Of a stretch of 64,000 nucleotides of DNA, positions 52,206 through 56,254 are shown in pieces. Below the pieces are notes generated by a model. It did not search any database. It worked only from the letters and a program-made list of their open reading frames with translations, and was not told the DNA's origin. The stretch comes from Frankia casuarinae (GTDB taxonomy: Bacteria > Actinomycetota > Actinomycetes > Frankiales > Frankiaceae). How positions within the stretch are numbered: the first letter of the stretch is position 1; each line of letters starts with the position of its first letter. A program made the translations under genes and the position numbers. The stretch covers positions 1,674,001 to 1,738,000 of the forward strand of contig NC_007777.1 of NCBI RefSeq assembly GCF_000013345.1. Direction: 5' to 3'.

Positions 52206-52281
52206 CGCGCGGCGGCTCAGAACACGCGCGGCGGCTCAGAACACGCGCGGCGGCTCAGAACACGCGCGGCGGCTCAGAACA
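52206..52281. repeat. 19-bp tandem repeat over the stop codon of the metalloprotease gene
   Basis: Four perfect units of cgcgcggcggctcagaaca, then a partial fifth. The unit contains the last codons and stop (R-V-F-stop) of the protease gene on the minus strand. The array therefore shows three further copies of the gene's end downstream. Confidence 0.95.
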
Positions 52282-54592
52282 CGCGCCGGGGGACCGACCA
52301 GCTTGCACCGGGGCCCGACGAACGCCAGACCATGTGGAGCCGGTCGCCGACGCGGGCGAGCACCTCCAGATGCCCGTCGAAGTTGCTCTGGATCATCGAG
52401 ACGGCGTCCACCCGGCCCAGCTCCGGTGCGAACGGCCGCGGTCCGCTCCAGCCCGGGGAGGGCGCGCCGTTGTTCCGGTAGAAGTGGATGAGCCCGCGGT
52501 CCGCGGCGGGGACGACCACCTCGAAGTTGCGGGAGCCGTCGGGGAAGGCGCTCTGGATGAGCGCCGGATTGCCCGTCACGCCCTCGGCGAAGACGGGGCC
52601 GGTGCGCCAGACCGCCCCGTTGTCGCGGGTGAGGTGCACGAGCCGGTTGCCGACCCGGGCGACCGCTTCCAGCATCCCGTTGCCGCCGCCCAGCGTGCCG
52701 TGGATGAGGCTGACGGCGTCGACGCGCCCGAGGTTCGCGCCGAACAGCTTCGGAGTGCTCCACGGAAATCCGTGGATGTCATGGTTGCGCCACAGGTGCA
52801 GGATGCCGACGTCCGCGGCGGGCACGAGCAGTTCGAAGTTGCCCTTGGTGCCCAGCCGGCTCTGCACCAGCGACGGAACGCCCCCCACCCCCTGGACGAG
52901 GCGGGTCGGCGGGTGCCAGGCGAAGGCGCCGGTGGAGTCCCGCCACAGGAAGTACAGCGTCGAGCCGACCCGGACGGCGACCTCGAGGGGTCCCGGCCTG
53001 GCCAGGGTGCTCTGGATCATGGTGGCGGCATCGATCCGGCCGAGCTCCTGAGCCGTCTGCCACGGGGCCATCCAGGGGAAGCCAGCCGCGTCGTTGTCCC
53101 GCCAGACGTGGGTCAGCCCGGCGAAGGCCGACGGGACGACGGCGTCGAAGTTGCCGATCTGGCCGAGCCCCCTGGCCTGGACGAGCGCCGGGTTGCCGCT
53201 TACTCCGTGGCCCCAGCCGATGTGGCTGGGGGTGTAGCGGCACAGCGCGAAACTGTTCGAGCGCATCAGGCAGTCGACGGGCGCGGGCGCGCAGGCGTCG
53301 CAGTTGCCGTTCGGGGCGTGGAACGCCCCCCACCGACCGCCGCAGTCGCACTGGGCGCCCGCGTACTCGTCCGGAGCGCCGAAGATGTGGCCGGTCTCGT
53401 GGGTGAAGACCCGGTCGATATTGTCCGGTCCCCAGCCGTCGTTGTCGACGGACATCACGAGCCGGGGGCCACCCACCGAGGAGTACGCGAAGTATCCCAG
53501 CGGATACTTGGTGAAGAACGCGCAGTAGGCGGACCGGGTGCCGAGCCGGGACCGGAGCGCGTCGACGTAGTCGTAGACGCCGTCGAAGCTGGCCGCGTAG
53601 CCGAGCCGGCTCATGGTGGGGTCACGCCACAGCGCCTCGAGGTCGGGCGCGTTCGGGTCCGGTGGGACGGACAGCCGCACGATCTGGATGTCGTAGTGGA
53701 AGGTCAGGTCGGCAGCCGGGTTCGTGGTTGCGTACCAGGACAACCCGTTCTGCACCTCAGCTACGATCTTGGTGCGTTCCGCGGCGGTCAGTTGCAGCGC
53801 GGTGGTCGGCCCTTCCACGAGGATCAGCCCGACGGCCACCGATCCCTCCAGCGCCGCGCTGGTGGGGGAGGACGCCTGGGCGATCTGCGCGGTGGCCCGG
53901 GTGTCCGTGGCCCGGGTGTCCGTGGGCGCGGAGGTCGGGCTCTGGGCCTCGGCCCGCCCGTTCGGCTGGGCATGCGGTGTCGGCTGGGCATGCGGTGTCG
54001 GCTGGGCATGCGGTGTCGGCTGGGCATGCGGTGTCGGCTGGGCATGTGGTGTCGGCTGGGCATGCGGTGTCGGCTGGGCATGTGGTGTCGGCTGGTCCGG
54101 ACCAGGCGAGCTGCCCCGGGGCGGCGGGATGTCGGTGCAGGGCCGGTCCATGTCCCATGGCCGGCCGTCGCGGGGACGTTCCTGCTTGAGCTGCCGGTAG
54201 GCGGCGCTGGCCCGCAGGCGGAAGGCGTCCAGCCCGAGCGTCTCGGCGCGGTTCAGCCCGGGCGACACCCCGGTGGTCGACACGACGCTGCCGTCCGCGG
54301 GGGGGAGTACCGCCGCCGCCAGCCGGGCGGCGGTGCGCTCCGCCGTCGCCGTGGAGGTGCCCCGAGGCTGGCCCAACACGTGGACCCTGCCGTAGCGGTG
54401 CAGCGGCCGTCGTTCGTTGGCCAGGGTGGGATCGGCTGGCGAGCCGTCGCCCTCGGCGGTCTGGTCTACCCCGTCATCCGAGGACGCGTCGGTGGGTGCG
54501 ATCGCCGCGAACGCCGCACGGAGTGCTCGGCCCGTCTCCCCTCCGGCCGAGATGATGAGCGCGTGTTCGTCGGCCGGTACGTCCCCCGCCAT
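52274..54592 (-). CDS. Metzincin-like zinc metalloprotease with six-repeat propeller-like C-terminus
   Basis: The 772-aa protein has an uncharacterised N-terminal region, then a QPTPHA tract (seven 18-bp units). The protease domain has HExxHxxGxxD: H398, E399, H402, G405 and D408 in THETGHIFGAPDEY, then a Cys-rich loop and a Met-turn-like CLMRSNSFALC. Asp as third ligand recalls snapalysin. The last 300 residues hold six repeats of about 48 residues in alternating pairs (NPALVQ...LTHVWRDND...FPW; AATMIQS...LYFLWRDS), as in PLL-like or FG-GAP-like beta-propellers. ATG at 54592 has AAAGGAAA upstream. No signal peptide is seen. The target is unknown. Confidence 0.8.
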   Translation of the reverse strand: MAGDVPADEHALIISAGGETGRALRAAFAAIAPTDASSDDGVDQTAEGDGSPADPTLANERRPLHRYGRVHVLGQPRGTSTATAERTAARLAAAVLPPADGSVVSTTGVSPGLNRAETLGLDAFRLRASAAYRQLKQERPRDGRPWDMDRPCTDIPPPRGSSPGPDQPTPHAQPTPHAQPTPHAQPTPHAQPTPHAQPTPHAQPTPHAQPNGRAEAQSPTSAPTDTRATDTRATAQIAQASSPTSAALEGSVAVGLILVEGPTTALQLTAAERTKIVAEVQNGLSWYATTNPAADLTFHYDIQIVRLSVPPDPNAPDLEALWRDPTMSRLGYAASFDGVYDYVDALRSRLGTRSAYCAFFTKYPLGYFAYSSVGGPRLVMSVDNDGWGPDNIDRVFTHETGHIFGAPDEYAGAQCDCGGRWGAFHAPNGNCDACAPAPVDCLMRSNSFALCRYTPSHIGWGHGVSGNPALVQARGLGQIGNFDAVVPSAFAGLTHVWRDNDAAGFPWMAPWQTAQELGRIDAATMIQSTLARPGPLEVAVRVGSTLYFLWRDSTGAFAWHPPTRLVQGVGGVPSLVQSRLGTKGNFELLVPAADVGILHLWRNHDIHGFPWSTPKLFGANLGRVDAVSLIHGTLGGGNGMLEAVARVGNRLVHLTRDNGAVWRTGPVFAEGVTGNPALIQSAFPDGSRNFEVVVPAADRGLIHFYRNNGAPSPGWSGPRPFAPELGRVDAVSMIQSNFDGHLEVLARVGDRLHMVWRSSGPGASWSVPRRVF
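53964..54089. repeat. 18-bp tandem repeat, seven copies, in the metalloprotease gene
   Basis: Seven copies of ggctgggcatgcggtgtc, two with a c-to-t change, encode QPTPHA in the linker before the protease domain. Confidence 0.95.
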
Positions 54593-54852
54593 ACTTGATC
54601 GTTTTCCTTTCGGTGGGGATGGCTGTGCGGAGTTGTATCGTGTTGCGGCTTTGTTGTGCCGGCTTTTGTGAAAACAAGTACGCAGAGTGCCGATCTGGTG
54701 CCTTCGCCTGCTTTGTTCAGAGGGATTGCGCCAACATAGCCGGCGGCGGGCGTCCACCCGGCCGGAGCCGGGCAGCCGCCCGGGTGGCTCGGCGTCTCGG
54801 CGTCTCGGCGTCTCGGCGTCTCAGCGTCTCAGCGTCTCAGTGCCTCAGCGCC
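54593..54852. other. Gap upstream of the metalloprotease with AT-rich part and 8-bp repeats
   Basis: The part 54593-54740 is AT-richer than its surroundings and is the likely promoter region of the protease. The rest holds the 8-bp array. I see no gene here. Confidence 0.6.
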
Positions 54853-54855
54853 TCA
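54791..54855. repeat. 8-bp tandem repeat, eight copies, over a stop codon
   Basis: The unit ggcgtctc, changing to agcgtctc and agcgcctc, is repeated eight times. On the minus strand the units read tgaggcgc/tgagacgc, and the first TGA is the stop of the 67-aa gene. Since 8 is not divisible by 3, stop codons occur in all frames. Confidence 0.95.
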
Positions 54856-55056
54856 GCGCCGGTCCGGAGCGAACGATGCCTGCGCCGATGGCACGTCGGG
54901 CCACATGGCCCCGACGGCGGGCCGTTCCGGCGCACCCATGGCCTCGGCCACCTTGCGCATGATGGCTTCCACCAGCCGGACAGCCTGCGGGGTCGCGAGG
55001 TTCAGCACGATCTCGGCATCCCCCGCCACCTGGAATCGCACCGAAACGTCCGCCAT
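54853..55056 (-). CDS. Small acidic/helical protein (67 aa) upstream of the metalloprotease
   Basis: The 67-aa protein begins MADVSVRFQVAGDAEIVLNL, a beta-hairpin-like start, followed by a helix (PQAVRLVEAIMRKVAEAMG) and a Pro-rich tail. AGGAAAGG lies about 8 nt before the ATG. It is cytoplasmic, with no signal. The same strand and position upstream of the metalloprotease suggest a joint unit. I do not recognise a family. It might be a regulator, inhibitor or substrate; none of these is shown. Confidence 0.55.
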   Translation of the reverse strand: MADVSVRFQVAGDAEIVLNLATPQAVRLVEAIMRKVAEAMGAPERPAVGAMWPDVPSAQASFAPDRR

Positions 55057-55213: not shown

Positions 55214-56254
55214 GTGGTGACCTTTCCGTCAGCGACAGTGCGTGACTGTGTGGCCGTGCTTGAGCGTTTCTTCCCTCCGTCCTGGGCCGAGTCCTGGGAC
55301 GCGGTGGGACTGGCGGTGGGTGATCTGGACGCGCCGGCCTCGGCGGTCCTGTTCGCGGTGGATCCGACCCCCGAGGTGGCGGCCGAGGCCGTCACGGCGG
55401 GAGCTCAGCTGCTCGTCACCCACCACCCGCTGTTCCTGCGGGGAGTGCACGGCGTCGCCGAGACCGGTCCGGGCGGGCGGGTCGTTGCCACCCTGATCCG
55501 GGCCGGCGTCGCCCTGTACACCGTGCACACGAACGCCGATGTCGCCGCGCCGGGCGTGAGTGACGCGCTTGCCGACGCGCTGGGGTTGCGTGACGTCGCC
55601 CCGCTGTCCGCCCCGGCCCCGCTGTCCGCCCCGGCGAACGTCGGGGCCGACGAGGGCGGTGCCGGGGCCGACGAGGGCGGTGCCGGGGCCGACGAGGGCG
55701 GTGCCGGGGCCGACGAGGGCGGTGCCGGGGCCGACGAGGGCGGTGCCGGGGCCGACGAGGGCGGTGCCGGGAGCAGCGCCGGTGATGAGGGTGGTGTCGG
55801 TGATGAGGGCGGTGTCGGCGGGGCGAGCGTGTGCTGGGGCCTCGGCCGGATCGGTGACCTGCCCGCGGCCGAGTCCCTGGAACGGTTCTGCGCCCGGGTC
55901 GTCCGAGCGCTGCCGGCGACGGCGGGCGGGGTCCGGGCGACGGGTACCGCGGACCGGCTCGTCCGGCGGATCGCGGTGTGCGGCGGCTCGGGGGGAGAAC
56001 TGGTCGCCGCAGCCGAGGCCGCGGGAGCGGACGTCCTCGTCACCGCGGACGGCCGGCATCACCACGTCCTCGACGCCGTCGGTGCGCATGGGGTCGTGGT
56101 GGTCGATGTCGCCCACTGGGCGAGTGAATGGCCCTGGCTGAGCCAGGCCGCCACCCGCCTGCACACCGGTCTGCGTGCGAGGGGACGTACGGTGAGCACG
56201 TCGGTATCCGCTATCGTGACCGATCCCTGGCGGGTGCACGTTCCGTCCCGGTAG
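55214..56254 (+). CDS. NIF3-family (DUF34) dinuclear-metal protein with repeat insertion
   Basis: The 346-aa protein has VLERFFPPSWAESWDAVGLA, metal ligands in LLVTHHPLFLRGV and TVHTNADVA, and the C-terminal DVAHWASEW. Typical members are about 250-280 aa (some have a middle insertion). Here the insertion site contains GADEGGA repeated six times from a 21-bp unit (55643-55768) and further DEGGVG copies. The family may act as a GTP-cyclohydrolase-I-like enzyme or metal chaperone; function is unsettled. Two GTGs (55214, 55217) can start it. Confidence 0.88.
   Translation: MVTFPSATVRDCVAVLERFFPPSWAESWDAVGLAVGDLDAPASAVLFAVDPTPEVAAEAVTAGAQLLVTHHPLFLRGVHGVAETGPGGRVVATLIRAGVALYTVHTNADVAAPGVSDALADALGLRDVAPLSAPAPLSAPANVGADEGGAGADEGGAGADEGGAGADEGGAGADEGGAGADEGGAGSSAGDEGGVGDEGGVGGASVCWGLGRIGDLPAAESLERFCARVVRALPATAGGVRATGTADRLVRRIAVCGGSGGELVAAAEAAGADVLVTADGRHHHVLDAVGAHGVVVVDVAHWASEWPWLSQAATRLHTGLRARGRTVSTSVSAIVTDPWRVHVPSR
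55643..55768. repeat. 21-bp tandem repeat, six copies, in the NIF3 gene
   Basis: Six near-identical copies of a 21-bp unit, beginning ggggccgacgaggg, encode GADEGGA. They sit at the natural insertion point of NIF3 proteins. Confidence 0.95.

Follow-up and report, generated by a model that had tools for sequence, protein, structure and literature searches.

Introduction

Matrix metalloproteinases use a histidine as the third zinc ligand and carry a four-bladed hemopexin propeller. Among bacterial metzincins, cysteine-switch latency is known for mirolysin, according to an excerpt of the published account (PMC6949598). The Photorhabdus lectins PLL2 and PLL3 have been detected extracellularly although the PLLs have no recognised signal peptide (a section of PMC12203525), and DUF346 has been noted as PLL-like (a passage in PMC7778903). 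Here we describe a gene of Frankia casuarinae that encodes a metzincin-like domain joined to a propeller resembling these lectins. It lies in a stretch of 64,000 nucleotides (NC_007777.1, positions 1,674,001 to 1,738,000), hereafter the window, within which all coordinates are given. Our best reading of the product, held tentatively and at somewhat less than an even chance, is that of a latent, lectin-guided zinc protease, with catalysis, latency, sugar binding and site of action all putative.

Results

A metalloprotease-propeller protein in four parts

The gene and its product are as follows.

52274..54592, minus strand: metalloprotease-propeller gene, 772 amino acids (aa), ATG at 54592, stop codon ending at 52274

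The protein consists of an N-terminal segment (about residues 1-165), a proline-rich linker, a metzincin-like domain (about residues 248-463) and six repeats (residues 464-772). The sequence GAAAGG lies a little ahead of the ATG, and the reading frame opens two codons before this same ATG in the relatives L004 and L019, making a longer start with a leader unlikely. A crude test based on hydropathy only revealed no leader-like stretch, as the highest 15-residue mean hydropathy was 1.45 over start positions 1-55 in 35 sequences (8 of which duplicate strains). The first-pass annotation had also seen no signal peptide, and none is visible here at the level of sequence.

Pfam and NCBIfam scans of this protein and of a 67-aa protein encoded upstream of it gave nothing above cut-off. 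A sequence search of the PDB returned only sub-threshold ADAM10 and snapalysin for the protease, and scans of viral sequences with A1 and A3 found no relative.

The repeats form a six-bladed propeller

52277..53203, minus strand: six-bladed PLL/AAL-like beta-propeller, residues 464-772, three blade pairs

The arrangement of the six repeats as three pairs, proposed in the first-pass annotation together with a beta-propeller fold, was borne out by comparing the blades with one another. Like-with-like comparisons gave z-scores of 17.5-28.5 for the A type and 11.7-16.5 for the B type, as against -1.0 to 8.3 for A versus B, each score being computed against 200 shuffles. In an AlphaFold2 model built from an 8-row alignment, six four-stranded blades were counted by eye, and the predicted local distance difference test (pLDDT) score of the propeller was 64-94 in 30 of 32 ten-residue blocks and 58-59 in the other two. 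When the propeller was used as a Foldseek query, ranks 1-19 were all PLL-family lectins (best expectation value, E, 1.8e-14; 20-22% identity), and VIA-align, which served as a second look at the Foldseek matches, placed AAL/AFL/FleA-type fucose lectins at the top (Z 27-29). The fold match to both the PLL and the AAL-type fucose lectins indicates that the propeller reading of the repeats is right, and at the level of the model we regard the six-bladed fold as settled. No credible PDB match by sequence was obtained for the propeller (a papain-type relative described below does match the AOL lectin, E 1.5e-4), and the window protein has no Pfam match to DUF346 above cut-off. From its fold, the propeller might bind glycans.

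The metzincin-like domain

53204..53851, minus strand: metzincin-like catalytic domain, residues 248-463, six invariant cysteines
53369..53401, minus strand: zinc-binding motif HETGHIFGAPD, residues 398-408
53264..53272, minus strand: Met-turn CLM, residues 441-443

Conservation was assessed across 28 Frankiaceae sequences, each from a different genome and with the window protein among them. The motif HExxHxxGxxDEY is present in all 28, and Cys441, Leu442 and Met443 are invariant, as are six cysteines (415, 417, 431, 434, 441 and 451). By these invariant metzincin signs the domain is metzincin-like, as the first-pass annotation had it, without a family assignment; this holds as far as sequence goes. 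Reprolysin_5 was matched by all seven members scanned (best E 3.3e-5). The window domain scores 17.7 with M7 against a cut-off of 25, and a profile of the domain aligns with snapalysin over the zinc motif only (E 0.1). The Pfam scan gave no Peptidase_M10 match for the window protein, and the PRCGxPD switch is likewise absent from it.

The N-terminal segment and its invariant cysteine

54098..54592, minus strand: N-terminal segment, proposed prosegment, residues 1-165, with conserved patches at about 64-77 and 97-159
54137..54139, minus strand: codon of Cys152, in WDMDRPCTD, candidate cysteine switch
53962..54095, minus strand: tandem repeat of 18 bp in 7.4 copies that encodes the TPHAQP units of the proline-rich linker between the N-terminal segment and the catalytic domain

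Cys152 is kept in all 27 Frankiaceae sequences that reach the site, likewise within CTD or CTE (27/27); the 28th begins at a contig end and was omitted from this count. The sole other cysteine of this protein outside the cluster, Cys357, is replaced by Val or Ala in 8 of the 28 sequences. Three sequences (L035-L037) have a cysteine at none of columns 357, 401 and 406, yet retain Cys152, which suggests that this conserved residue of the prosegment is unpaired. What is new here is this invariant N-terminal cysteine as a candidate cysteine switch.

The spacing from Cys152 to the catalytic domain varies between 47 and 97 residues across the Frankiaceae. The linker has about seven TPHAQP units in this strain and differs in the eight relatives aligned. 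A second match to the protease in its own genome proved to be to the proline-rich repeat alone.

Many near-perfect minisatellites were seen at this locus (window positions 52206-52286, 53962-54095, 54788-54858 and 55642-55771, and also in L063). Several are in frame inside genes (TPHAQP, TPSEQP and a 21-bp repeat in a NIF3-like gene), and one overlaps the protease stop codon.

A core locus of the Frankiaceae

Counting this genome, the protease was found in 10 of the 13 genomes from the genus and 28 of the 35 from the Frankiaceae; all eight homologous loci that carry a name belong to Frankia. The neighbours of the locus are NIF3, zinc-ribbon and RNase-H-like genes (named by eye), and the order NIF3, small gene, protease was seen in all eight named loci, as well as in all 9 additional stretches chosen from other genomes. 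NIF3 is missing from a 3.4-kb contig (L038) that holds the small gene and the protease, and in L100-L102 the sequence stops beyond the small gene. In two genomes with no protease match, G005 and G010, a contig ends at most 0.5 kb from the small gene, at the place expected for the start of the protease. Two others, G013 and G015, gave no match to the small family either.

Beyond the family, 10 of 393 class-wide genomes matched a portion of the query less strongly, and, out of 396 genomes in the phylum, a profile of the catalytic domain picked up 3, namely this one, G665 and, weakly, G176. To judge from this distribution and the kept gene order, the Frankiaceae inherit this locus vertically as part of their core.

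Two possible readings: a latent, lectin-guided protease or a cytoplasmic one

According to the reading that we favour, the C-terminal six-bladed propeller would dock on glycans, and the metzincin-like domain, with His398, His402 and Asp408 as zinc ligands, Glu399 as the base and Met443 in the Met-turn, would cut nearby proteins. The N-terminal segment would fold back and hold the Cys152 thiolate on the zinc until release, as in matrix metalloproteinases and mirolysin, and the activating cleavage would fall in the proline-rich linker between segment and enzyme. Export would not depend on a Sec/Tat signal: the protein would get out through lysis or a non-classical pathway, as seems true of the PLL lectins; the small upstream gene would be a neighbour, not an established partner.

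A number of observations weigh against this reading. No Pfam family reaches its cut-off over the catalytic domain; Reprolysin_5 ranks first for the domain of the window protein, but with a score of 22.3 where 27 is required. In the full-length AlphaFold model the pLDDT of the domain was 23-57 by ten-residue block, and in a cropped model of it the first half reached 45-66 and the second 23-40; Foldseek with this low-pLDDT crop yielded no match at E of 0.001 or below, and metzincins appeared among the best 50 matches listed only at E 2.3 and 4.0. As for the propeller, sialidases were tied with or near the lectins in VIA-align (Z 26-27), and no PLL lectin was among the best 50 VIA-align matches listed. 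As for the latch, additional cysteines occur near the active site in some relatives (column 401 in 4 of 28, column 406 in 5 of 28), and the more distant relative G665, which has the catalytic domain and a similar N-terminal segment, carries WDRGGEDVL with no cysteine at the switch site. Finally, the six invariant cysteines include a CxC and a CxxC, which makes cytoplasmic metal binding as possible as disulfides.

This last point also leads to the most serious of the alternatives, one that we consider unlikely without dismissing it: the same protease-propeller would act in the cytoplasm, with the cysteine cluster binding a structural metal, the propeller recognising an internal partner and Cys152 having another role. 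The invariance of the CxC/CxxC pattern in 28 of 28 sequences fits such a protein, as do the lack of a leader-like stretch in the 35 sequences tested and the inheritance of the gene as a core gene beside those for NIF3, zinc-ribbon and RNase-H-like proteins. However, lectins similar to the propeller occur extracellularly, and a galactose-oxidase-like protein encoded on a Burkholderia plasmid, which carries the propeller (29%), has a lipoprotein-like leader by eye.

The small upstream gene is probably a neighbour

54853..55056, minus strand: 67-aa small gene with a conserved core of about 44 aa, MADVSVRFxxxxDxEIVLNL...
54738..54781, minus strand: strong GC-rich hairpin after the small gene, possible terminator without a T tail, -31.7 kcal/mol
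54626..54640, minus strand: CGATACAACTCCGCA, a conserved element immediately ahead of the protease that looks promoter-like by eye

The small gene lies upstream of the protease on the same strand, with a gap of 260 bp between them. The first-pass annotation had noted this pairing and suggested that the small protein might be a chaperone, inhibitor or regulator of the protease. The pairing itself is well conserved, as it was found at all 27 non-redundant protease loci with upstream DNA. Moreover, three genomes without the protease (G009, G026 and G034) seem to be without the small orthologue as well, as judged by match strength in fragmented assemblies. Both observations would suit a dedicated partner. 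However, since the whole NIF3-small gene-protease block is syntenic, linkage alone explains the pairing and no functional tie is needed. The small family is also not confined to this position: 30 of the 33 genomes with the family have at least three matches and three have two, and each of the 30 genomes with the protease-adjacent type has at least two additional copies. The two further copies of this genome (G000:C1:3730933-3731103 and 4751061-4751201), which are matched across the Frankiaceae, are apparently lone genes by their reading frames, one sitting between F420-reductase-like and XerD-like genes and the other after a PMT-like gene (names by eye). All 33 genomes are Frankiaceae, and no member was found outside this family in the 393-genome class-wide set.

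A conserved block with CGATACAACTCCGCA precedes the protease ATG across the genus and is exact or weaker in other genera. Judged by eye, CGATACAACTCCGCA could be a -10 region; a sigma-70 consensus scan found no site. It has a single exact copy in the genome, and 6 places at two or fewer mismatches versus 1 for a control; we claim no regulon. The conserved promoter-like element between the two genes points to separate transcription, and the small gene is likely transcribed separately from the protease, which further argues against a dedicated partner. A scan for T-tail terminators found none. In 16 of 25 loci the hairpin was stronger than any of ten shuffles (2 of the 27 loci were left out, the pattern having missed the small frame), a test that favours real sequences, as the shuffles kept base content only and were scanned at every fourth position; a uniform terminator is not claimed. 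Folding of the whole 260-base gap was unremarkable (z -1.58 versus shuffles). Taken together, a dedicated role for the 67-aa protein as inhibitor, chaperone or regulator of the protease seems to us distinctly improbable.

The same propeller on other proteases

Fusions of this propeller to other proteases were gathered incidentally from different searches, and no leader was visible by eye in them. A Paenibacillus sonchi plasmid protein (WP_202677761.1; NZ_CP068596.1, L081:3206-4924) has PG_binding_1, PRCGLPD, Peptidase_M10 (154 bits) and a propeller of three nearly identical pairs, with 44.4% identity over 55% of the query. A phage contig (L084:4530-6161) encodes an Astacin match (29 bits) fused to the propeller, and terminase-like and HNH-like genes lie next to it (by eye). 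Three actinomycete genomes (G167, G377 and G335; L065, L066 and L068) have a papain-like protease with the propeller; the one scanned with Pfam, from G167, matches Peptidase_C1 (119 bits) and DUF346 (30.4 against a cut-off of 22). In G172 the propeller comes first and is followed by a domain with HEFGHMIGHPD. The relative of the protease in G665 (L079:286-2427) has BTRD1 (polyglycine-hydrolase-type) repeats replacing the propeller. G033 has a propeller-only frame, and a Streptomyces plasmid protein has no Pfam match at E 0.01. A phylum-wide propeller search matched 4 of 396 genomes, this one included, so propeller proteins are rare.

In G477 (L107:601-2535), the propeller stands behind a protease-like domain without HExxH (IAELAEIF, by eye), perhaps a pseudo-protease; together with the unconfirmed fold of the catalytic domain in the low-pLDDT models and Foldseek, it could suggest that the Frankia domain too is a degenerate metzincin-like scaffold for binding only, which is very improbable, as the zinc ligands, the glutamate and the Met-turn are retained in 28 of 28 sequences.

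Discussion

The architecture, which the first-pass annotation took to be new, is so in one respect: the Frankia protein is a new combination of known parts, to which one new idea, the Cys152 latch, is added. The joining of a protease to this propeller, on the other hand, recurs with other protease families. No description of this protein or fusion was found in the open-licence literature, a weak sign of novelty, and no link between the locus and the NTP (nucleoside triphosphate)-dependent conflict systems was found in passages of PMC7159879.

A broader view, which we offer as speculation and consider doubtful, is that a single leaderless lectin-type propeller has been fused repeatedly, in bacteria and a phage, to unrelated proteases, of at least three metzincin kinds and papain, giving a modular glycan-guided class that parallels the vertebrate matrix metalloproteinases, with the Frankiaceae version fixed in the family and equipped with an unconventional CTD cysteine switch.

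If a latent, lectin-guided protease is indeed what the gene encodes, a conserved protein of actinorhizal nitrogen fixers would be a glycan-targeted protease with a built-in latch, and the plan of prosegment, protease and propeller would have arisen in bacteria from different parts. Searches of secretomes based on signal peptides would miss such proteins; the published Frankia search relied on signal peptides, as described in an excerpt of PMC2266912.

How, then, does the Frankia protein compare with known systems? The four-stranded-blade propeller is common to it, to the PLL/PHL lectins of Photorhabdus and to the AAL-type fucose lectins, and, as in the PLLs, no recognised leader is visible. 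However, PLL has seven blades and the Frankia protein six (six repeats, and six sheets in the model), and the Frankia propeller is fused to a protease. On the enzyme side, snapalysin (M7) shares AHETGHxxGxxD with Asp as the third ligand, but compared with snapalysin, the reprolysin-like M12 enzymes and mirolysin, the Frankia protein falls below the family cut-offs, has an insert with six invariant cysteines and carries extra domains. The Paenibacillus sonchi matrixin resembles it in having the propeller, an N-terminal cysteine motif and, by eye, no leader, and differs from it in being a true Peptidase_M10 with PG_binding_1 and PRCGLPD. The matrix metalloproteinases present the same order of parts by analogy, that is, an N-terminal cysteine segment, a metzincin-like domain and a propeller; their switch is PRCGxPD as compared with CTD in the Frankia protein, which is without a Peptidase_M10 match, has Asp as the predicted third zinc ligand and ends in a lectin-type six-bladed propeller instead of hemopexin.

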